From: a virus
Direction: 5' to 3' (one strand)
IMG/VR virus record: IMGVR_UViG_3300027659_000252
Location: 1 to 21,338 of that record
DNA: 21,338 nucleotides
In this document: one piece after another, positions 2,715 to 18,065 of the stretch
Position numbering within the stretch: position 1 is the first letter of the stretch
Layout of the letters: every line of letters begins with the position of its first letter
The notes under the pieces: model-generated
The model's database searches: none
The model's input: only the letters and a program-made list of their open reading frames with translations
What the model was told of the DNA's origin: nothing
Position numbers and translations under genes: made by a program

Positions 2715-3602
2715 ATGAGTGAGATAATAGTTTATAATTTTTTAGATGGTAAAAATATATGTAATATTTTTGCAAAATTAATTGTTAATGAAATTAATAA
2801 TATAACACCAGAATCTAAAGTTAACATACAAGTAGTAAATGTTAGAACTTTTTTTGTAGTTAGGGGTGTTTCTTCATCAGGTACAGTTTTAAATTTATCA
2901 GAAATTTTTCAAAAATATTTAAAAAAATACGATGAAGATTTATCAAAAAAAATAAGAGTAATAGATAATATTATTTATAACCACAATTTTGATTTAATCC
3001 CAATACATATTACTAATCATGATAAAAAATTAATAAATTTAAAAAAAGATAAAATACAAAAAATAATTGACGTTTACGCTAAGAATAAAATCTATTTTAA
3101 CGTTAAGATAGAAGAGGTAAATGAATATTTATATTACGATTGTATTGAGGAAGAACTATCCACTGTGATTAAAATATTAAAAACCCATTTTCCAAAATAC
3201 GAACTAATAAAATCTGATTTTTCACAGGAGGTATACGTTTCAGACAAATTTCACGGACTATCAAACAATGGAGAAAAACTATATTATTTTTTATTAAAAT
3301 ACATAACAAACCACATATTTAAACTTGGGATCTCAAAAGAAATGGAATTATCACTTTATTCTAATATAAACGTTAATGATATTGATAATAATAATTGTAA
3401 GTTTGAAATTTTAAACAATAACCACATAGTAAAAACAGAATGGTTAAGGTCACTAATTTTAGACGTTTTTCCATTTGAATATTCAAAATTAGTGTCTAAG
3501 TTTGGTAATTTTAATTATTCAGATTTGGATTTATCTGATATATCATCTGAAGATTTAATATGGGAGGATTTAGATTTAATATCTGAAATAGTATTAGTCT
3601 AA
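2715..3602 (+). CDS. hypothetical protein, 295 aa
   Basis: No family is recognised with confidence. The sequence is soluble mixed alpha/beta and ends in an acidic Asp/Ser/Leu-rich tail (YSDLDLSDISSEDLIWEDLD). The first 80 residues faintly recall the first domain of S-adenosylmethionine synthetase: a DGKNICN helix, then a hydrophobic strand containing RTFFVVRGVSSS where the family has its GLVLVAGEITT-like strand. The catalytic residues of that family are not evident, so this is only a hint. The 3' end runs 9 bases into the minus-strand glutaredoxin gene, so the two stop codons lie inside each other's coding sequence. It is probably co-transcribed with the small gene upstream, 64 bases away. 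Confidence 0.75.
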   Translation: MSEIIVYNFLDGKNICNIFAKLIVNEINNITPESKVNIQVVNVRTFFVVRGVSSSGTVLNLSEIFQKYLKKYDEDLSKKIRVIDNIIYNHNFDLIPIHITNHDKKLINLKKDKIQKIIDVYAKNKIYFNVKIEEVNEYLYYDCIEEELSTVIKILKTHFPKYELIKSDFSQEVYVSDKFHGLSNNGEKLYYFLLKYITNHIFKLGISKEMELSLYSNINVNDIDNNNCKFEILNNNHIVKTEWLRSLILDVFPFEYSKLVSKFGNFNYSDLDLSDISSEDLIWEDLDLISEIVLV

Positions 3603-3881
3603 TAGATAATTTTTAACTATTTCTACACCTTCATGTATATCATTATAGTCTTTATCAGGACTTAAATATTTAACGTTGTGAGCAACCTTATTTTCATCTA
3701 AAGTCATTAACAATAGTGCGGGTACATATTCGTTATTAACAATCTTAGAAAAATCATCATACTCAGATTCATGCTCGTAAATATCTCGGTCTATAAAATT
3801 TATTTTATTTTTTTTAAACTCCTCTTTAATGTGATCACAATGAGGACAACCATTCATACTGTATAATATAGTTAATTTCAT
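3594..3881 (-). CDS. glutaredoxin/thioredoxin-fold protein
   Basis: A 95-residue protein that starts with a beta strand (MKLTILYSM) followed directly by the redox motif CPHC (Cys12 and Cys15) at the head of a helix. At about residues 52-55 a VPAL stretch supplies the expected cis-proline. This is the layout of a small glutaredoxin. Such proteins reduce disulfides, and in large phages often serve ribonucleotide reductase, though no reductase lies in this window. A YDDFSK...YVPALLLM middle and a C-terminal helix complete the fold. Its start overlaps the stop of the upstream gene as ATGA. Its 3' end overlaps the convergent plus-strand gene by 9 bases. Confidence 0.8.
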   Translation of the reverse strand: MKLTILYSMNGCPHCDHIKEEFKKNKINFIDRDIYEHESEYDDFSKIVNNEYVPALLLMTLDENKVAHNVKYLSPDKDYNDIHEGVEIVKNYLLD

Positions 3882-6261: not shown

Positions 6262-7638
6262 TTAATTATTAAAGAAAAAAGTTTCGTCTGATTCCATTTT
6301 TTGTTTTAATTTTTCAGGTATAATTAATTTTGGATTAGAACCTACAAGGTTTATTACACATAACCTATTTAAATTAACTAAACATTCAGGTAAAGAATTT
6401 AAATCTTTATTATCCGGTAAAGATAAAAATTGTAATTGGGTTAAATTACATATTGAGTTAGGTAACGTTTTAACACAATTAACAAAATGTATTGCCGTTA
6501 AATCTTTGAATCTACCAAGAGTATCTGGTACGTTTAAACTAAGATTATTAGTTGATTTATTAACAAATTCAAGTCTTTTTATCCCGTTTGGTAATGTTTC
6601 AAAAAACTCATCAAAGCCATATAAAGCAATGAATTTAGAACTACTATCATTTGGATAAGTAACAGAAACTTTAGTTCCGTCACTATTAGATAAGGATTTC
6701 ATAAACTCTGGTTTAAAAAAATCTTTAAGACTAGATTCTTGTTTATTTAAAAATTCAATTAAATCGATTTGTCTGTCATCAGCATCCATAAATTGACTAT
6801 CAGGAAAATGGAATTGGTATCTATTTGCGGGTAAACCTGAAACGTCTCCAATTTCTTTTCCGTAATTTTTAAAAGTAGTTGGGGTATTTGGTATTACCAC
6901 ATATAATGGTCCTTTATTAATATATCTTTCAAACCAAGTTAATCCAGGTGAGGATGTGCACCAATTAGTCTCTCCTTTTCTTGCCTCATTATGAGACCCA
7001 CCATAAAAACATGCTGCGTCCTTACCTAATTGACCTGTGTTACTAATTTTAATAACAGTCCAACTACCACCTCTATAAACAACTTCACCACCTGGATGAT
7101 CATATGTTATAGAAGCCGTTTTTTTCTCATCGGCCGTAGCTTTAGTTTTTTCTAAACTAAAATCTTTAACATTATCATATAAAGTTTCAATAGTTAATTT
7201 ATTAATATCTCGATACTCTTGTGATAACTTATTTTTAAATCTTTCATATTTTTTAAGGTTATTCGTTGTTTTGTATAAATCCTCAAGATATAAAGATTGA
7301 TAAGACTTAAGAGCTTCTTTATATTGTCCTGATTTTGGGTCAGAAATCATTAAAGGGTGGTCACCTGGTAATTTTGGAGTTACAAAGTTTTTTAATAACC
7401 ATTGAACATATTTACCAATTTTAACATTTTCCATGTCTTCAGGTTTAAGTTCATCGATATCTTTTCCTTCAGGAAATTTTGATGTAGGGTCTGCAGCGAT
7501 TATAGCAACTAACGTTTCAAAAGGTACCAATCCTTTTGATCCCCGTTCTTTTGGTTTTACAAATTTGTCAAATAAAACTGAAAATCTTGATCCCTCAATT
7601 ATTAAGTCTTTAAGGATAGTGGTAAATCTAATAGCCAT
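6262..7638 (-). CDS. 458-aa phage protein with C-terminal leucine-rich repeats
   Basis: Three parts are visible. Residues 1 to about 160 are helical and charged (KYERFKNKLSQEYRDINKLT), similar to a segment seen in other large-phage proteins. The middle, about 175-290, has a Gly/Tyr-rich region with GETNWCTSSPG, a LYVVIPN strand and YQFHFPDSQFMDADDRQID, a pattern I associate with unassigned phage proteins. Residues about 345-445 contain three to four leucine-rich repeats, such as LPNGIKRLEF, LPNSICNLTQLQFLSLPDN and LPECLVNLNRLCVINL. LRRs normally mediate protein binding. There is no signal peptide or membrane segment, so a virion or cytoplasmic role cannot be separated. The start MAIRFTTILK sits behind an AGATATTTAT element, and the next gene upstream is dam. 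Confidence 0.85.
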   Translation of the reverse strand: MAIRFTTILKDLIIEGSRFSVLFDKFVKPKERGSKGLVPFETLVAIIAADPTSKFPEGKDIDELKPEDMENVKIGKYVQWLLKNFVTPKLPGDHPLMISDPKSGQYKEALKSYQSLYLEDLYKTTNNLKKYERFKNKLSQEYRDINKLTIETLYDNVKDFSLEKTKATADEKKTASITYDHPGGEVVYRGGSWTVIKISNTGQLGKDAACFYGGSHNEARKGETNWCTSSPGLTWFERYINKGPLYVVIPNTPTTFKNYGKEIGDVSGLPANRYQFHFPDSQFMDADDRQIDLIEFLNKQESSLKDFFKPEFMKSLSNSDGTKVSVTYPNDSSSKFIALYGFDEFFETLPNGIKRLEFVNKSTNNLSLNVPDTLGRFKDLTAIHFVNCVKTLPNSICNLTQLQFLSLPDNKDLNSLPECLVNLNRLCVINLVGSNPKLIIPEKLKQKMESDETFFFNN

Positions 7639-8619: not shown

Positions 8620-8808
8620 ATGGAAAATATAGAACAAAACTCAGAAAACTCAGAAAACACAGAAAACACAGTAGGTTGCAGAACTTGTAAAAATAGTGGT
8701 ATAAATTCAACACAAAAATGGATAGTAGCGTTATCTATTTATATTTTTTTAACTTCAATATTTGGTACCTACGTATTAATTAAATCGTTATTCGATTATA
8801 TTCAATAA
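8620..8808 (+). CDS. small single-pass membrane protein, 62 aa
   Basis: The N-terminus is a Glu/Asn/Ser/Thr repeat (NSENSENTENT), followed by CRTCKNSG with a CxxC pair (Cys20 and Cys23) and one hydrophobic segment from about residue 34 to 57 (WIVALSIYIFLTSIFGTYVL). A single transmembrane helix with a short polar N-terminal domain is expected. Not recognised as a family. It starts in the dam/8620 gap, and its last 21 bases overlap the 3' end of dnaJ on the other strand. It is judged real because of its non-random composition, membrane segment and fitting position. Role unknown. Confidence 0.6.
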   Translation: MENIEQNSENSENTENTVGCRTCKNSGINSTQKWIVALSIYIFLTSIFGTYVLIKSLFDYIQ

Positions 8809-9780
8809 TTTTTTAATATTTTCTTTTGTTTCTTGATTAATTTCGTAATTATTGGTTACGGATATTTTTATAAAAAAATCACCAATACCATCGTTATATT
8901 TAAACCCTTTATTCACAACTCTAAGAGGGTTATCCGAATTTAAATTATTTGGTATGTGTATATTTAATTCACCTTCTGGATGTGGTACTTGTATTTTACT
9001 TTTAGTGATTAACTCAATTGCTGTTAATGTTTTATAGTAAATTAAATTTTTACCATTTTTTTCAAACCCATCAGTCTTATTAAGAATAATTTTTAAGATT
9101 AGATCCCCTCTATTTTGTGTTACTTGATTAAAGTCTCCTTTTGATCCTAACCTAACAAAATCTCCGTTATCAACATTCCTTGGTATATTAACAGAAACAG
9201 TATCTACTTCTTTAATAACACCATTACCACTACATAACGAACACGGATTACTAATAACGTTACCAGCCCCACCACAAGTCGTACATTGTGTGTTAATGAT
9301 TTGTTGGAACATTGAGTTTCCTATTTTTTGTACAATAAATCCTTGACCATTACAAGTTCTGCAAGTTTTTCGATCACCCCCAGAACCATTACAAGGGTTG
9401 CAATAATTAAAAAACTCATATTTAAATTCTTTTTTTACGCCATAAAAAGACTCACTAGGTGTTATATCTACACCTATAACCTTATCAGGAGCCTTTCTTT
9501 GTGTTTGTCTACCCCCATTCATCATTTCATTAAAAACGCTATGTATATCAAAACCACCACCATTGAAACCATGAAACGGGTTATTTTTTTGGTTGTCGTA
9601 ATTATTTTTTTTATCCTGATTACCTAAAACATCATAAGCTTCTGAAATTTCTTTAAATTTTTCATTTCCTTCAGGGTTTACATCTGGATGATATTGTTTA
9701 CTTAATAATCTATAAGACTTTTTAATTTCGTCTTGTGTCGCGTTTTCGTTTACGCCTAATATGTTGTAATAGTTTTTCAT
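8788..9780 (-). CDS. dnaJ: DnaJ co-chaperone (Hsp40), full type I layout
   Basis: A 330-residue protein containing every type I DnaJ part. The J domain (1-62) has HPD at 31-33. A Gly/Phe region follows (NNPFHGFNGGGFD, about 66-78). Four zinc-finger repeats are present: CNPCNGSG (127-134), CRTCNGQG (140-147), CTTCGGAG (166-173) and CSLCSGNG (180-187). A C-terminal substrate-binding region follows. It should stimulate the ATPase of an Hsp70 and deliver clients. No dnaK is in the window, so host DnaK is the likely partner. The start at 9780 is fixed by the J domain beginning MKNYYNILGV; the longer reading adds only hydrophobic non-homologous residues. The start codon overlaps that of the plus-strand gene at 9779, and the 3' end overlaps the small membrane-protein gene. 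Confidence 0.96.
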   Translation of the reverse strand: MKNYYNILGVNENATQDEIKKSYRLLSKQYHPDVNPEGNEKFKEISEAYDVLGNQDKKNNYDNQKNNPFHGFNGGGFDIHSVFNEMMNGGRQTQRKAPDKVIGVDITPSESFYGVKKEFKYEFFNYCNPCNGSGGDRKTCRTCNGQGFIVQKIGNSMFQQIINTQCTTCGGAGNVISNPCSLCSGNGVIKEVDTVSVNIPRNVDNGDFVRLGSKGDFNQVTQNRGDLILKIILNKTDGFEKNGKNLIYYKTLTAIELITKSKIQVPHPEGELNIHIPNNLNSDNPLRVVNKGFKYNDGIGDFFIKISVTNNYEINQETKENIKKLLNIIE

Positions 9781-10420
9781 GAAAAATAATTTTATTATAG
9801 TTTTATTTAATAATAAAGAAAAAAAAAAAATTATCAAACGTTTTTATAAAGAAAAAAACGCAGTAATAAAATTTGAATATCTAATATCGAATAATGATAT
9901 TTTATTTGAAAAAAAAATAAATAATACAACGCAAGTTAATTATGAATTGGGGTTATTAACAGACATCAGTAAAGTACAAAAAAGTTTATACACTACTGAT
10001 GAAATGGGTAGAAACCAAACTGTTAATTTAGACGATCCTAACTATATTTTTTTAGACATTAAAAAATATAAAATTGAAGAAACTATTTTTGACTGTCAAA
10101 AAAAAATTAAAATAACATTCAAAGAATTTATATTTAACTATTGTAACAATAAAGATTTAAAAAACATATTCACATTAAATAATAAAATATGTGTACAAAT
10201 TGATTTGAATGTTTTTATTTTTTCATTAAAGAATAAATCTGAGTCAGATAGATTTTTATCAGTAACTGAAGATTATTTTTATAACAATAATAGGTCAGAT
10301 GCATTATTCGTTAAAGATGTTTCAACAACACAAAGAAAATGGTTATACGATATGTTGGAAAATAAAGGTTTCAATAGACAAACGTTGTATAGACAAAAAA
10401 CTACGTATTCAAAAAGATAA
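9779..10420 (+). CDS. hypothetical protein, 213 aa, start overlapping dnaJ
   Basis: Not a named family. The N-terminus (MKNNFIIVLFNNKEKKKIIK) and the C-terminus (TTQRKWLYDMLENKGFNRQT) look like conserved globular coding sequence rather than a shadow, and the frame is open for 640 bases opposite no other gene except at its ends. No signal peptide or membrane segment is present. A run of twelve A (9819-9830) encodes the lysines near the start and is prone to slippage or assembly error. The start shares CATG with dnaJ, so its promoter must lie inside dnaJ. The last 20 bases overlap the convergent gene ending at 10401. Confidence 0.75.
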   Translation: MKNNFIIVLFNNKEKKKIIKRFYKEKNAVIKFEYLISNNDILFEKKINNTTQVNYELGLLTDISKVQKSLYTTDEMGRNQTVNLDDPNYIFLDIKKYKIEETIFDCQKKIKITFKEFIFNYCNNKDLKNIFTLNNKICVQIDLNVFIFSLKNKSESDRFLSVTEDYFYNNNRSDALFVKDVSTTQRKWLYDMLENKGFNRQTLYRQKTTYSKR

Positions 10421-12144: not shown

Positions 12145-13599
12145 TTATTGTGTTTTTACGTTATACCCCATTAAATTACTAATTTTTTTAGTTTCAGCTA
12201 TGACAGAAGCATTTTCAATTGACTCTAAACGTGTAAGGATATCATGTGTTTTTTTAGATCTAGGTTCGTTTTCAACAGGTTGAGATGCTTTATTATACGC
12301 CTTACTTTTTACTACTGATAAAAGATTATTTTTTCTAATAGTATTTCTTTTTTTATTGTTTGGTGTTTCAACAGCATTTGCCCATTTAGGATTATTTCCT
12401 GTTTTTGAACTACCTACAATATTATTTGTAACCCAATCTTCATTAGGTTTAATTTCATCGTAGTCTAAATTTTCTAATCCCGCGGCGGTAAAATTATCAA
12501 TATACTCTTCAACGTCATTTGAGGCTTTATATGCCATCTTATCCATTTTAGCTAACTCGCCATTTCCTTTAGGAAAATGTTTAGGATTCATATCGTAAAC
12601 ACCTTTAGAACCAGTCTTAAGATAGTCTTTCATTTTTTTAACAACACTATCAATGTAACTATCATTTTCCTTTTTAGATTTATCTAAATTAGTTTTTGTT
12701 ATTTTAATTGGATTATTTTTTGTTTTTTTAATTTTAGCTTTTTTCTTTTCTTCTAAAACAATATTTTCAATAATATCTATAATTTCATTTTCATTAAAAA
12801 TAAATTTTTTATTAACTCCATTTAATGTTAATTCGTAAGTTTCTTTTCTTAACATTTTAAAATCTTCAGAGTCAATTCTGTTGTTCTTGTTCTTATCTAT
12901 TCTACTTTGATTCCCGTATAGTCTTTCACCTAATTCGCCATCTCTTTTTTTATCTCGGTCATCCATATGTTTTTTTAATTTTTCCCATTTTGGGAATCCT
13001 TCCTCATCGTTGTCATCTTTTATTTGACGCATTAAATTGTTAATATTTTTATTTCGATCATCAATTTGTTTTTTATCTCGATCATCCATATGCTTTTTTA
13101 ATTTTTCCCATTTTGGGAATCCTTCCTCATCGTCACCTTCACCTAATTCTCTATCTATTCTTTTAATCTCTTGAGATTCTTTATCAAACTTATCGTCATA
13201 ATCTTCATTAGCATAATCATCATAATCATCATCATCAAAGGTTTTATCACCATAATAGGGGTTATTCATACTTAGGTCTTTATAATCTTCGTCATCATTA
13301 TCTTCGTCACCTCTAAGTAAATTGTCAATTTCTTCTGGACTCATTTTTTTAGGAAATCTTTTATGACCAAATTTTGGATGTCCATCATCCATACCTCCCA
13401 ACTCTTGAATATCTCCTTCGTACATACTACCGCATTCTTCACATACATTACCTTCATTTGTTTCTCCACCACATGACTCACAAACTTTTTTATTGTTAAC
13501 TTCTTCATCTTCAAATAATCTATATTTGAATTTAGATATATTATTTGAAATCTCTTCAGATAATACTTTATTTACTATTTTTACAATTTCTTTATCCAT
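12145..13599 (-). CDS. 484-aa acidic protein with zinc ribbon, duplication and EF-hand-like loop
   Basis: Visible parts: a CxxC-x9-CxxC zinc ribbon (Cys40, 43, 53 and 56; CESCGGETNEGNVCEECG), a long acidic Asp/Glu/Tyr stretch (about 95-145), and two near-identical copies of EGFPKWEKLKKHMDDRDKK (about 156-177 and 197-218). A canonical-looking EF-hand/dockerin-type loop, DKNKNNRIDSED, falls at 235-246. Then come a basic Lys-rich section and a C-terminal KISNLMGYNVKTQ. No homologue is recognised. The mix of acidic and basic low-complexity parts would fit a scaffold or internal virion protein (inference only). The two copies are 123 bases apart with two mismatches in 60, so the duplication is recent. 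Confidence 0.85.
   Translation of the reverse strand: MDKEIVKIVNKVLSEEISNNISKFKYRLFEDEEVNNKKVCESCGGETNEGNVCEECGSMYEGDIQELGGMDDGHPKFGHKRFPKKMSPEEIDNLLRGDEDNDDEDYKDLSMNNPYYGDKTFDDDDYDDYANEDYDDKFDKESQEIKRIDRELGEGDDEEGFPKWEKLKKHMDDRDKKQIDDRNKNINNLMRQIKDDNDEEGFPKWEKLKKHMDDRDKKRDGELGERLYGNQSRIDKNKNNRIDSEDFKMLRKETYELTLNGVNKKFIFNENEIIDIIENIVLEEKKKAKIKKTKNNPIKITKTNLDKSKKENDSYIDSVVKKMKDYLKTGSKGVYDMNPKHFPKGNGELAKMDKMAYKASNDVEEYIDNFTAAGLENLDYDEIKPNEDWVTNNIVGSSKTGNNPKWANAVETPNNKKRNTIRKNNLLSVVKSKAYNKASQPVENEPRSKKTHDILTRLESIENASVIAETKKISNLMGYNVKTQ
12951..13133. repeat. in-frame direct repeat inside the 484-aa gene
   Basis: Copy 1 (12951-13010) and copy 2 (13074-13133) differ at only two of 60 positions. 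The 123-base spacing is a multiple of three, so the reading frame is kept (41 codons per unit). A degenerate DDRNK motif in the spacer suggests further, older repetition. Confidence 0.9.
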
Positions 13600-13630: not shown

Positions 13631-14023
13631 TTATTTATTTTTATTTTTTTTACTTAAATTAATTGCCTTAATGTCACCTTGATTGCAATATGGGTATTTT
13701 TTACATTTATTTTTTATTGAAACAAACAACCCTCCTGGTATCTGTGTCTTTTTAGATGTCCTCCAATTTTTTAAATCTTTAGCTAAAAAAAACGGAGTTT
13801 CATATGATCCTGAAGATCCGGAATCCGTACTTTCAGTCGCTTCTATTTTTTTAATTTCTTTTTTTTTATATTCATTTTTAGCTTTATCATCATTTGAAAA
13901 TAAACTAAACGGTGGTCCACCATTAAAACTACCTGAAGATGCTGATCCGGTACCTTCTTTTGCCTCGTCTTTAATTTTTTTTAATCCCTCAGTGATTAAA
14001 ATATTTAAAAATTCTTTTGTCAT
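13631..14023 (-). CDS. hypothetical Gly/Ser-rich protein, 130 aa
   Basis: Two related segments, TGSASSGSFNGGPPF (about 25-39) and STDSGSSGSYETPFF (about 65-79), are each followed by a more charged stretch. The C-terminus has CKKYPYCNQGDIKAINL, with two Cys five residues apart. I associate the SGSxGSYxTP pattern and the YPYCNQGD ending with unassigned Bacteroidetes phage proteins, without a known function. The start shares ATGA with the stop of the upstream gene. Confidence 0.68.
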   Translation of the reverse strand: MTKEFLNILITEGLKKIKDEAKEGTGSASSGSFNGGPPFSLFSNDDKAKNEYKKKEIKKIEATESTDSGSSGSYETPFFLAKDLKNWRTSKKTQIPGGLFVSIKNKCKKYPYCNQGDIKAINLSKKNKNK

Positions 14024-14268
14024 CTTTTATTTTTTAGAAATCCTTGCCATTGATTTTTTTTACTCCACATTAAATAATAGAACTCAGACATCATGGTAAC
14101 TATTACCTCGTTAATGTCTCCTCTTAAAGTCCCTGTTTTTATTTCAGATTTTAATCTATCTAATAAATTATCTTCATATTTTTTAAGCGTAGTCGCTGAT
14201 AAAAAATTTTTAATTTCTTTTCTAATTGTAACTTCAATTTCTTTTTTATCTGATTCTGATAAAGCCAT
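14020..14268 (-). CDS. hypothetical protein, 82 aa
   Basis: A mostly helical charged protein: SESDKKEIEVTIRKEIKNFL, then a LLDRLKSEIKTGTLRGDI segment and an aromatic end (SEFYYLMWSKKNQWQGFL). Not recognised. It is sandwiched by a TAATG junction upstream and an ATGA junction downstream, so it is almost certainly translated with its neighbours. Confidence 0.65.
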   Translation of the reverse strand: MALSESDKKEIEVTIRKEIKNFLSATTLKKYEDNLLDRLKSEIKTGTLRGDINEVIVTMMSEFYYLMWSKKNQWQGFLKNKR

Positions 14269-14678
14269 TATTTTATTATTGTTAATACGGTTAATGCCGA
14301 TATTATCGATCCTCCAATTATTTTTATAAATAAACTTTTAGTTTTTAATTTTTTAACTTCTTTTCTTAAATTATTATTTTGTGTGTCTACAATTACAAAT
14401 TTTTCATTTTCTTTTTTAATTTGTAATTCATAATTTTTTTCTTTTTGTTCAAAAAGATTAATAATGTTTTCTTGAATGGTAACTTTTTTTCCAATTTCAA
14501 ATATTTCTATCTTGGTTAATTTATCAATTTCAGTTAAAGAATCTAATTTATTTAAATCTAAAGCTATTTTTTTTGCAACTTTGTAAGGAATACAAATTAA
14601 ACTGGTGTCTGTATTTATTTTTTGTGAGAATGCCCACATTGGTAAAAAAATACAAATAATTAATATTATATTTTTCAT
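14268..14678 (-). CDS. secreted coiled-coil protein with C-terminal membrane segment (spanin-like)
   Basis: A 136-residue protein. The start at 14678 is chosen because it opens with a good signal sequence, MKNIILIICIFLPMWAFSQ, and lies just after the upstream stop (TAAAATG); the longer reading adds an unlikely polar leader. A cleavage site around AFS-Q fits Bacteroidetes signal peptides. No lipobox Cys is at the right place. A Lys/Glu heptad-rich coiled coil (about 55-110) follows, then a final hydrophobic helix (FIKIIGGSIISALTVLTII). This N-terminal export plus C-terminal anchor layout resembles a u-spanin without the lipid anchor. The next gene upstream encodes an N-anchored coiled-coil protein, so the pair may act on the cell envelope at lysis (inference). 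Confidence 0.7.
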   Translation of the reverse strand: MKNIILIICIFLPMWAFSQKINTDTSLICIPYKVAKKIALDLNKLDSLTEIDKLTKIEIFEIGKKVTIQENIINLFEQKEKNYELQIKKENEKFVIVDTQNNNLRKEVKKLKTKSLFIKIIGGSIISALTVLTIIK

Positions 14679-14679
14679 T

Positions 14680-15030
14680 TTAATATTCATATCTTTTATG
14701 GAATAATTTATCAATTTCAGAAGTATTCATTTTACTAATTTCCTCTCTTTTATTTTTATAAATATTAGTTATTATTATTTTTTCATTTTTAACTTTAGCT
14801 ATTGTTGAATCAATTTTATTTAATTTTTGTTTATATTCTTCAATTTTTACATCTAATTTTTTTTGATTTTCAATAATTAATTCAATACCTTGATTTAATT
14901 CATCTAATTTGTATTTATCTAATTCAGACATTTCGGGTTTTTTGGTTGTTACCCATATGACTAAATAAATTAATAAGGTTGTTAATATTATTCCTACAAA
15001 AATTTTCCAATATTTTTTAAAATATATCAT
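14680..15030 (-). CDS. N-anchored coiled-coil protein (i-spanin/Rz-like)
   Basis: A 116-residue protein. One transmembrane segment (about 9-28, WKIFVGIILTTLLIYLVIWV) follows a short basic N-terminus, so it is likely N-in/C-out. The rest is a continuous Lys/Glu/Ile heptad-rich coiled coil, ending MNTSEIDKLFHKRYEY. The topology is that of an inner-membrane spanin, and the terminal pattern recalls unassigned lysis-cassette proteins in Bacteroidetes phages. The downstream gene starts one base after its stop. The protein could alternatively be a tail or membrane-tethering protein. Identity as spanin is inferred from topology, pairing and nearness to an amidase-like gene. Confidence 0.65.
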   Translation of the reverse strand: MIYFKKYWKIFVGIILTTLLIYLVIWVTTKKPEMSELDKYKLDELNQGIELIIENQKKLDVKIEEYKQKLNKIDSTIAKVKNEKIIITNIYKNKREEISKMNTSEIDKLFHKRYEY

Positions 15031-15033
15031 TTT

Positions 15034-15576
15034 TTATATTTTTTTTGTTTTTTTTCTATTAGATATCACTCCCGCCCATTTAGATTTAAACCTGTCATAA
15101 AAAGCAGTTAATTTACCTATCAATTCTGTTAATTTATCATCTAACTTAATCATATCACCATTAACATATACTCCGTTATTTTCACCTATAGCGTAAAAAA
15201 ACTCAATATCAACATCAATAATTTTACCGCTCCACTGTACATCATTATAGTACATATTTAAAACACCAAAATCAGATAAGTCTGAAACTTCAGAAACAAA
15301 CTCATCCATAGTTTCCTGAAATGCGGTTTTTTCGTCAGTAGTTAATTCTAAATCTTTTTTATCCTTACCGTGCATAGTTAAAAGTCCACCAGAAATTCTA
15401 TAAGTTTTACTTTTATCCTTTTTAATTTGATTTATGTCAGTATTATCGTTTTTTGACTCACTATCTTGGTTAATATTTGTTTCAATACTTTTACCTAAAT
15501 TTACAATTTCAGACTGTTCGGTCAACATCCTTGATCTTTTTAGTAATAACTTAATTTCATCATATTCATTTATCAT
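15034..15576 (-). CDS. hypothetical protein, 180 aa
   Basis: After a charged, Asn/Asp-rich N-terminus (to about 55), the core is a well-formed alpha/beta domain: TYRISGGLLTMHG, then a helix FQETMDEFVSEVSDL, then beta-strand-like VQWSGKIIDVDIEFFYAIG, and NGVYVNGDMIKL followed by a C-terminal helix ending in a basic tail. No named family is recognised; I associate its core with unassigned phage proteins. It overlaps the amidase-like gene by 11 bases and lies 3 bases upstream of the spanin-like gene, so it is expressed with that group. No signal peptide or membrane segment is seen. Confidence 0.7.
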   Translation of the reverse strand: MINEYDEIKLLLKRSRMLTEQSEIVNLGKSIETNINQDSESKNDNTDINQIKKDKSKTYRISGGLLTMHGKDKKDLELTTDEKTAFQETMDEFVSEVSDLSDFGVLNMYYNDVQWSGKIIDVDIEFFYAIGENNGVYVNGDMIKLDDKLTELIGKLTAFYDRFKSKWAGVISNRKKTKKI

Positions 15577-16165
15577 AATTCAGTTGTTGTTTAAATAGTT
15601 TAAAATCAAAAGATGGGTTAACATCTTTATTATAAAAATTAAAATTGCTCCGACTAACAATGCCTTTAAAATTCTCCACATTGTCTTGTTTTACATTATT
15701 ACCTATACATTCTTTAGGTATATTAAATTCTTGACAAAGATCAATAACAAGGTTTACTAAGCTTTTAATTTGTTTACTACTATAAATATCCCAATAATAG
15801 TATTCTCTCCATTTTTTTTTTAAAACTTTATTTTTAGTTATGTCACCAATCCAATTACTATATGTTTCTTCTAATGGGTTTTTTTTTAACCATCCAAAAT
15901 TTTCTAAAGATATTATTATTGAATTTTTATCTATGGTTTCATTTTCCATATAACAGGAATACTCTTTTGGGTCTATTATTTTTATAACTTCTCCGGATTT
16001 AGAAATAACATAGTTCGGTAAATATGGATTTTTTTCATTATATCTGTACCTTAAAGATTGTATATATTTTTTATACTCTCGTTTTGTTTCAGTTAATATT
16101 ATCTGAGTTTTTTTGTTATTGGTACCAACTGAAGTAAACTCAAATGTTTTATCAATATTTTTCAT
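15566..16165 (-). CDS. amidase-2-like protein lacking all histidines
   Basis: A 199-residue protein whose motif order recalls zinc N-acetylmuramoyl-L-alanine amidases (Amidase_2/T7 lysozyme fold): a first strand IILTETKR, YLPNYVISKSGEVIKI where these enzymes have an xHYxI..dG strand, SIIISLENFGWL, a long helix with LVNLVIDLCQEFNIP, and GIVSRSNF...DVNPSFDF, where they have an HSxI....KxDPGxxFDF block. The whole protein contains no histidine, so none of the usual zinc ligands is present. It may be an inactive relative with a binding role, or the assignment may be wrong. It overlaps the upstream membrane-protein gene by 14 bases and the 180-residue gene by 11. Confidence 0.6.
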   Translation of the reverse strand: MKNIDKTFEFTSVGTNNKKTQIILTETKREYKKYIQSLRYRYNEKNPYLPNYVISKSGEVIKIIDPKEYSCYMENETIDKNSIIISLENFGWLKKNPLEETYSNWIGDITKNKVLKKKWREYYYWDIYSSKQIKSLVNLVIDLCQEFNIPKECIGNNVKQDNVENFKGIVSRSNFNFYNKDVNPSFDFKLFKQQLNYDK

Positions 16166-17153
16166 TTCTATTTGAATATGATAAACTTTTATTTTTTAAA
16201 TTATTATTAATTTTTTTTTCATTAACATTATTAATATCTACTTCAGTAATATGTGAAAAATAAACTTCAGGGGTTTCAACCTCATCATGTATGGTATCAT
16301 GTATGGTATCTTCTTTGTGAGGGACACTGGTGTCCCTCTCTGAATCTTTGTCTTTTCTTTTTCCTTTAAAGGCTTGGTTTGTAGCAATAATTAAAGTAAT
16401 AGCCAAAGGATCAAATACAAAAATTAAAAGTAAAATGAAAAGATTTGCCACCTTCTTAACATCCCAACCTGAAATCTCACTAATATATTTAATAGCCCCT
16501 AATTCACTACCTTCCAACTCCGCGGATTCCATATTAAGTATTTCAATATCTAATCTTGTAATACTATCATTTATTGCATCAATACGAGTTGAGACTTTAT
16601 CTCTATTTTCTGTGGTAAGTTTTAACTGACTCTCAAATGATTTACGGTTAGCGTTATTTGCTTTTGTAATAAGTTGTCCTGTGGTCTTATCTACAGATTG
16701 TGTAGTTGTATTTGTTGATAACCCATCTCTTAACTTTGAAATATCCTTATCTAACACATCTTTCTCTTTCTGTTGTTCGTTTTTTATTTCATTAAATCTT
16801 GTTTTTTTTACTTCAACATTTGCAATCTTTTTTTGAGTGATGTCAAGTTTTGTAATATTTCCTTGAAACCCGGTACTTAATAAACCATAAATCCCAAGTG
16901 AAGTAATCAAAGATAATGTTACAAGAGCGATTGTGAGATATATCTTTAATACTCCGTATGTTTCTTTCCATTTATCGTGTAAGTATGTTGCAATAGCAAT
17001 CTTAGATAACTCAAGGAATGATCCCATAATAATAACAGGTAAAGCAACACCAACAAATACCACCGATAACCCTACCACACTATAATAAGCTGCAGTTCCT
17101 GATAGACCAAGAGCACAAAATAATAAAAACCAAGGCAAAAATTTTTCTTTCAT
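16152..17153 (-). CDS. multi-pass membrane protein with a long coiled coil, 333 aa
   Basis: The start at 17153 (MKEKFLPWF) is chosen because the longer reading from 17204 would begin inside the terminator. Three hydrophobic helices fall at about 5-23, 24-48 and 72-94, then a long heptad-rich coiled coil (about 100-215), then one more strong helix (VANLFILLLIFVFDPLAITL) and a polar tail. Helix 2-3 contains GLSVVFVGVALPVIIMGSFL, a pattern I have seen in membrane proteins of other large phages, without a known function. A signal-anchoring, holin-related or host-membrane role is possible. The tail holds HDTIHDTIHD, a tandem duplication of 12 bases, and is next to a palindrome. First gene after the terminator. 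Confidence 0.8.
   Translation of the reverse strand: MKEKFLPWFLLFCALGLSGTAAYYSVVGLSVVFVGVALPVIIMGSFLELSKIAIATYLHDKWKETYGVLKIYLTIALVTLSLITSLGIYGLLSTGFQGNITKLDITQKKIANVEVKKTRFNEIKNEQQKEKDVLDKDISKLRDGLSTNTTTQSVDKTTGQLITKANNANRKSFESQLKLTTENRDKVSTRIDAINDSITRLDIEILNMESAELEGSELGAIKYISEISGWDVKKVANLFILLLIFVFDPLAITLIIATNQAFKGKRKDKDSERDTSVPHKEDTIHDTIHDEVETPEVYFSHITEVDINNVNEKKINNNLKNKSLSYSNRNEKY
16286..16338. repeat. tandem 12-mer and 20-base palindrome in the membrane-protein tail
   Basis: The 12-base unit CATGTATGGTAT is repeated exactly twice (16286-16297 and 16298-16309). Ten bases further, GAGGGACAC (16319-16327) and GTGTCCCTC (16330-16338) form perfect 9-base arms around TG. The palindrome is distinctly GC-rich for this genome and lies inside coding sequence for RDTSVP. 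Confidence 0.8.
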
Positions 17154-17186
17154 AATAATTAAAATATAACATATAAATATAAAAGA

Positions 17187-17219
17187 TAAATAAAAACCCT
17201 CCATTTTTGGTGGAGGGTT
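17187..17219 (-). terminator. Rho-independent terminator after the sigma gene
   Basis: A perfect 9-base stem (AACCCTCCA / TGGAGGGTT, arms 17211-17219 and 17195-17203) with a 7-base loop is followed on the minus strand by TTTTATTTATC. It is 31 bases after the sigma factor's stop and 42 bases before the next gene's ATG, so it separates the sigma unit from the membrane-protein unit. The stem is strikingly GC-rich for this window. Confidence 0.85.
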
Positions 17220-17249: not shown

Positions 17250-18065
17250 TTAAAAATAATCAAATAAGTCTAAGCATTCATTTCTTAACTTTCTAAGTGC
17301 TTTTTCTTTAATTTGTCTAACACGTTCTTTTGTTAAGTTAAAATCTAAACCAATATCTTCTAATGTTCTAGGTGTTCCGCTAATACCATAATAATCTTCA
17401 ATAATTATTTTTTCTCTTTCATTTAAAATACCCATAATATTTGCCATTTTTTGTTTGAGTAAGTCTGTATTATTTAACATTTCGTCAGGTAAATCAGCAT
17501 TATCGTTTTTAATTATATCAATTAAAGTTCCACCATCTTCATTTATAGGTGTATCTAAATTTACCATTTTAGGTAATGACGCAAACTTTATTGATAGTTC
17601 TTCGTTGGTTTTTTCATTTATTTTTTTTTCTTTTTGCATGTCCTGAACAACATTAACAGGAAGCCTAATAGTTCTTGAGTTGTCATTTAATGATTGAAAA
17701 ATAGATTGTTTAATCCACCAAACTGCGTAAGATATAAATCTATTGTTTTTTGACCAATCAAAGTGTTTTATAGCCTTAATTAAACCATAATTACCTTCAG
17801 CAATTAAATCAGACAGATCAACCCCTTGATTTTGATATTTTTTAGCAACAGTAATAACAAATCTAAGATTACCTTCTAACAATTCTTTATGAATCTTTTC
17901 TATTTCATGGCTATCACAATCGTTATCTGTTATTTTTTTAGATAACACTAACTCCCTTTCAGGTGTCATTACTTTTAATTTTCTAATATCCTTTAAATAA
18001 ATTTGTATTTCATCTTGGTTTAAAGGGTTTGATGATTTTATATCATCCATTTGATTTATTTCCAT
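17250..18065 (-). CDS. RpoD-type sigma-70 factor, 271 aa
   Basis: All core regions of a primary-type sigma factor are present: region 1.2 (IYLKDIRKLKVMTPERE, about 22-38), region 2 (LLEGNLRFVITVAKKYQNQG, DLIAEGNYGLIKAI, FDWSKNNRFISYAVWWIKQS), a shortened region 3, and region 4 (REKIIIEDYYGI, then LEDIGLDFNLTKERVRQIKE, the -35 helix-turn-helix). Region 1.1 and most of 3 are missing. The sequence resembles the Bacteroidetes primary sigma in region 2, so it should direct RNA polymerase to phage promoters. The start at 18065 overlaps the upstream gene by 23 bases; Met6 (18050) is possible. It ends 31 bases before a strong terminator, so expression of the unit is bounded. Confidence 0.95.
   Translation of the reverse strand: MEINQMDDIKSSNPLNQDEIQIYLKDIRKLKVMTPERELVLSKKITDNDCDSHEIEKIHKELLEGNLRFVITVAKKYQNQGVDLSDLIAEGNYGLIKAIKHFDWSKNNRFISYAVWWIKQSIFQSLNDNSRTIRLPVNVVQDMQKEKKINEKTNEELSIKFASLPKMVNLDTPINEDGGTLIDIIKNDNADLPDEMLNNTDLLKQKMANIMGILNEREKIIIEDYYGISGTPRTLEDIGLDFNLTKERVRQIKEKALRKLRNECLDLFDYF

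Follow-up and report, generated by a model that had tools for sequence, protein, structure and literature searches.

Phage proteins with an Amidase_2 domain are routinely annotated as endolysins, and the third zinc ligand of AmpD-type enzymes is an aspartate. In the Amidase_2 endolysin Ts2631 the substitution H30N leaves 17% of the activity and H131N 3%, and non-amidase PGRPs that lack a zinc ligand recognize peptidoglycan without cleaving it (PMC4573324). PGRP-SA has lost two of the four zinc-coordinating residues and holds no metal (PMC515366). Loss of catalysis in the Amidase_2 fold is already known from these animal proteins.

The protein described here, a 199-residue putative pseudo-amidase without histidine, assigned to the same fold by Pfam and a structure model, is encoded at 15566..16165 (minus strand) of the virus record IMGVR_UViG_3300027659_000252. 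The whole linear record, analysed at its full length of 21,338 bases (25.8% G+C) and called the window below, is probably a genome fragment, and any other lysins of this phage would lie outside the 21 kb in view. Phage-like genes of the window encode a sigma factor, an SbcC-like protein, DUF3310 and adenine methyltransferase, as well as glutamine synthetase (425-1543, with its two Pfam domains each above cut-off), glutaredoxin (3594-3881) and a complete DnaJ (8788-9786).

Fold, family and homologues

The open reading frame is intact, starts with ATG and overlaps both neighbours by 11-14 nt in an operon-like manner. Direct reading bears out the initial annotation, which had described a 199-residue product without histidine. 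However, histidine makes up only 1.35% of the residues of the window's ORFs, which gives a probability of about 0.067 for its absence from 199 residues, and 10 of the 31 window ORFs that were counted are likewise without it; the lack as such is therefore unremarkable, and what is informative is the positions at which histidine has been replaced. A sequencing artefact was ruled out, as two more His-free members of the family, L111 and L299, come from different contigs, and 27 sequences have the change at position 26 discussed below in common. The protein has no hydrophobic segment fit as a signal peptide or transmembrane helix, so a holin or another route would be needed for it to reach the wall.

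Membership of the Amidase_2 family, initially proposed from a motif pattern, was confirmed by the Pfam match (PF01510, E=6.9e-8, 33.3 bits against a gathering score of 26) and by structure comparison; all ten family members scanned also matched Amidase_2. An AlphaFold2 model based on an alignment of 82 homologues (pLDDT 83.5, pTM 0.79) superimposes on AmpD (2y2b) with Z 16.9 and rmsd 2.5 over 147 residues, so that the predicted fold is the one the initial annotation had expected. The structural matches comprise AmpD, AmpDh2, AmiD, endolysins, PGRPs and T7 lysozyme, with no other fold listed, and the same matches were obtained with the model of L123, a relative that has histidine at both 26 and 156; used as a sequence query against solved structures, the window protein yielded chance matches only. 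It thus belongs to the Amidase_2 homology family and has the AmpD/T7-lysozyme/PGRP fold, shared with the zinc amidases AmpD, AmiD, AmpDh2 and T7 lysozyme over nearly its whole length. The stretch from the last long helix to the retained aspartate is about 15 residues longer than in AmpD.

Direct searches of viral contigs, phages and genome contigs with the window protein returned no matches. Relatives were found in IMG/VR through the neighbouring sigma factor and SbcC genes, and profile scans added more, the final set being 156 distinct homologues from related large freshwater phages. One relative of the same family is 41% identical over all 199 residues, its annotation resting on the domain only. 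Another relative, L211, found among genome contigs (3.3 kb, from a MAG labelled Alphaproteobacteria), is probably a phage fragment.

Active-site positions and the acid clade

To map the residues, the family was aligned to AmpD, T7 lysozyme and phage amidases; all codons cited here lie on the minus strand. The first zinc histidine (AmpD H34) corresponds to position 26, most clearly in the alignment with the phage amidase MD18, and is Glu in the window protein (GAA, 16088..16090); among the 156 homologues this position holds His in 120, Asp in 16, Glu in 11 and Asn in 9. The second zinc histidine has two candidate equivalents. Position 156 (AmpD H154) is favoured when profiles are aligned to AmpD and MD18; it is Asn within GNN in the window protein (AAT, 15698..15700) and, across the 156 homologues, His in 136 (GHN), Thr in 12, Asn in 5, Ser in 2 and Arg in one. 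Alignments to the canonical amidases L203-L206 favour position 172, Arg within GIVSR (15650..15652), which is Arg in 88 and Lys in 63 homologues (151 of 156) and His in none; this choice fits a predicted four-residue strand at 168-171, and the closest canonical phage amidases, L203-L205, read GIWSHTN with an Asp nine residues later. Whichever is the true equivalent, neither Asn156 nor Arg172 is a histidine. The third ligand (AmpD D164) is retained as Asp181 within KDVNPSF (15623..15625), Asp being present in 151 of 156 homologues. The claim that every zinc-binding histidine position had been replaced therefore holds for Glu26 and for Asn156 or Arg172, but the third ligand is an aspartate and is kept, so two of three ligands are changed.

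The catalytic residues of the zinc amidases are also missing. The equivalent of the catalytic Glu (AmpD E116) is Ser86 (15908..15910), a position occupied by Ser in 74, Cys in 57 and Val in 17 homologues and by Glu in none of the 156; the catalytic Glu is therefore gone from its canonical place in the whole family. Asn179 stands at the position of the catalytic Lys (AmpD K162), which most family members also lack. These family-wide losses, together with the lack of His at 172, strengthen the pseudo-enzyme reading of the initial annotation. The annotation had named as a refutation homologues that are by design inactive and serve an unrelated purpose; of this the first half applies, the homologues looking inactive by design. 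As Asp181 and, in most members, His26 and His156 are conserved, relatives of the His type could still bind metal.

All 27 sequences with Asp or Glu at position 26, the window protein included, form one clade, the acid clade; its SH-aLRT support is 100, the columns under comparison having been left out of the tree. Position 180 is Lys or Arg in each of these 27 (Lys in the window protein, 15626..15628) and Thr in all 129 sequences with His or Asn at 26; position 28 (AAA, Lys, 16082..16084) is Lys or Arg in 26 of the 27 and in none of the 129 others. On the tree, position 180 changed once and position 26 seven times, once to an acid and otherwise to Asn. Outside the acid clade, His26 was replaced by Asn about six times independently, Thr180 being kept always. 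Because the acid residue and its basic counterpart have a single evolutionary origin, the perfect association of 26 with 180 is not independent evidence. Within the clade, Asp and Glu interchanged five times and His156 changed four times; the charges at 26 and 180 are kept even as the residues themselves differ, a pattern suggestive of an ionic pair between the two side chains.

The closest pairs within the acid clade have dN/dS of 0.09-0.24; the medians are 0.32 for the acid and 0.36 for the His sequences, the higher values resting on near-saturated dS. Purifying selection acts on the clade; the gene is being kept and is not in decay. With His26 in 120 and His156 in 136 of the 156 relatives, the homologue alignment supplied the comparison proposed in the initial annotation. 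Its suggestion of a recent loss has to be rejected, as the tree places the loss at position 26 in the whole 27-member clade, which is under purifying selection; this loss is an old, clade-wide change.

Gene neighbourhood and other lysins

The gene order around the pseudo-amidase is near-invariant in the family: sbcC - p185 - sigma - (p350) - amidase - p180 - p116 - p148 - p82 - p130 - p484, some genes of this block being undetected in more distant relatives. All the neighbours discussed here are on the minus strand. The phage sigma factor gene (17250..18065; PHROG 351, E=7.7e-55) lies upstream in the same block. It is followed by p350 (16152..17204), a membrane protein by its hydrophobicity, whose gene overlaps the start of the amidase gene by 14 nt; it has at least three hydrophobic segments near the N-terminus and another at the C-terminus, separated by a long charged stretch. 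In part of the family p350 is missing or too diverged to be detected, and the amidase gene and p180 stay. The next gene downstream, p180 (15034..15576, overlap 11 nt), is, of all the neighbours, the one found most constantly with the amidase gene and matches no family above cut-off. Short leaders ending in L/I-x-E (MLTEQ, ILITEG, VLSEE and LIIEG) were seen on p180 and on the proteins at 13631-14023, 12145-13599 and 6262-7638; they recall the prohead-protease-processed, capsid-targeted proteins of T4-like phages.

Further downstream, p116 (14680..15030) resembles an inner-membrane spanin in topology, with an N-terminal transmembrane segment, coiled-coil-like sequence and a conserved C-terminal FxxRYxY, and p148 (14268..14714) resembles a spanin partner, with a signal-like N-terminus and a C-terminal hydrophobic segment, without a lipobox. 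Throughout the 75 distinct neighbours compared, p116 had one N-terminal transmembrane segment followed by charged, coiled-coil-looking sequence; the N-terminus of p148 was signal-like, and a transmembrane segment at its C-terminus was frequent. The position beside spanin-like genes, reported initially, thus holds at the level of architecture; p116, p148 and p350 match no family above cut-off. Beside the pseudo-amidase of the sister-group loci L118, L119, L122-L124, L127, L129, L130, L132 and L133, no p116/p148 pair was detected.

Near-complete relatives encode other cell-wall enzymes: GH19 in five (G001, G002, G005, G006 and G007), phage lysozyme in G001, G002 and G007, and a second, canonical Amidase_2 in G003, G004, G009 and G011. 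The pseudo-amidase is therefore not their only cell-wall enzyme, and the candidate role of sole lysin is ruled out for these relatives. Two of them, G001 and G002, belong to the acid clade; the G001 protein is 67% identical to that of the window, and the G002 copy is likewise free of histidine. The canonical amidases (L203-L206, 281-293 aa) are encoded elsewhere in the genomes of phages whose pseudo-amidases fall in the sister group of the acid clade. They have His, Glu, Lys and Asp at the canonical positions and share with the pseudo-amidase family the signatures NxGxL, WRxxxxxxYTxxQI and GIxSxTN-like; L203-L205 are its closest canonical sequences by profile (E ~3e-13). A scan for more long canonical amidases gave a single match, already known, and a search for Peptidase_M15_3 gave none. 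The GH108 search was also without a match, but so was its control, so absence of this family is not shown.

Function and significance

By analogy with the Ts2631 mutants and with PGRPs that lack a zinc ligand, the window protein is very probably not a zinc amidase. A functional parallel would be PGRP-SA, PGRP-SD and PGRP-LCa, which have the same fold, have likewise lost zinc ligands, and bind without cleaving the amide bond. They differ in being animal immune proteins with other ligands lost, and no recent common origin is implied. Our preferred reading, which we hold to be moderately probable, is a non-catalytic Amidase_2-fold pseudo-amidase, which selection has preserved at a constant genomic position and which would assist or time lysis by binding peptidoglycan or a partner. 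Peptidoglycan or a lysis partner is favoured as what is bound, both by the fold and by the spanin-like genes nearby; this is the likeliest role, at about an even chance, and both the binding and the link to lysis are what we infer from fold and neighbourhood.

A hydrolase whose remodelled metal site consists of Glu26, Asp181 and a further residue such as Asn156, or one cutting muropeptides without metal, is unlikely. Glu26 and Asp181 are possible ligands, and E88-N89, W119-R120, W125, Q132 and N157 are near-invariant in both clades, as expected of a working groove; however, the invariant Lys/Arg180 beside Asp181 is unfavourable for a metal site, and the positions of the catalytic Glu and Lys are lost. 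Zinc-free PGRP-SA still acts as an L,D-carboxypeptidase by means of Ser158-His42 (PMC515366), but this dyad requires a histidine, which the window protein lacks. That the protein is a lysin in decay, replaced by other lysins and on its way out, is the least probable explanation, scarcely credible in our view: complete relatives do carry other lysins and the ligands have been lost repeatedly, but the whole domain is kept as an open frame in 156 distinct homologues with near-fixed synteny, and, beside the low dN/dS of close pairs (0.09-0.24), 24 positions are almost invariant in both clades.

Another explanation starts from T7 lysozyme, which shares the fold and, apart from its catalysis, inhibits T7 RNA polymerase, an inhibition hardly affected by some active-site substitutions (PMC4573324); a comparable regulator of transcription or of a phage protein, acting perhaps on the host RNA polymerase with the phage sigma factor encoded upstream, would agree with the conserved proximity of the sigma-factor gene. 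The window encodes no T7-like polymerase, however, and closeness within an operon-like block is weak evidence, so that such a regulator is also improbable. A part of the virion, for instance a peptidoglycan-docking tail component or an internal protein with no part in lysis, is quite improbable: docking would suit a non-catalytic peptidoglycan-binding fold, and the N-terminal L-x-E motifs of p180 and other nearby proteins resemble prohead-protease sites, but the pseudo-amidase lacks a leader of this kind, and the window holds no recognizable structural genes.

Under the preferred reading of a non-catalytic pseudo-amidase, the charge pair Glu/Asp26 - Lys/Arg180 would fill the space of the zinc ion, in whose place we infer it to stand, and stabilize the groove; the protein would then bind peptidoglycan, muropeptides or a partner lysin in place of cutting, and act beside the spanin-like genes as a lysis accessory or timer, much like non-catalytic PGRPs. 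The ligands were lost stepwise, His26 giving way to Asp or Glu together with Lys/Arg180, and His156 later, several times. A more speculative scenario, offered tentatively, is that a copy of an ancestral lysin had already become non-catalytic when a large freshwater phage group began to diversify, and that in one lineage the charge pair next to Asp181 took over the role of zinc, giving rise to a metal-free regulator that times lysis or guards the wall.

A conserved phage lineage in which zinc is exchanged for a charge pair appears to be undescribed in the open literature covered by our limited search, and a similarly limited search of open-access literature returned no described case of a pseudo-enzyme controlling phage lysis. 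The endolysin annotation is very probably wrong as to enzymatic function for more than 150 distinct sequences, at least in the clade of the window protein. A single alignment holds natural intermediates on the way from a zinc enzyme to a binding protein, a change that animal PGRPs underwent independently, and, if the role in lysis is true, the family would provide phages with a pseudo-enzyme that controls it.
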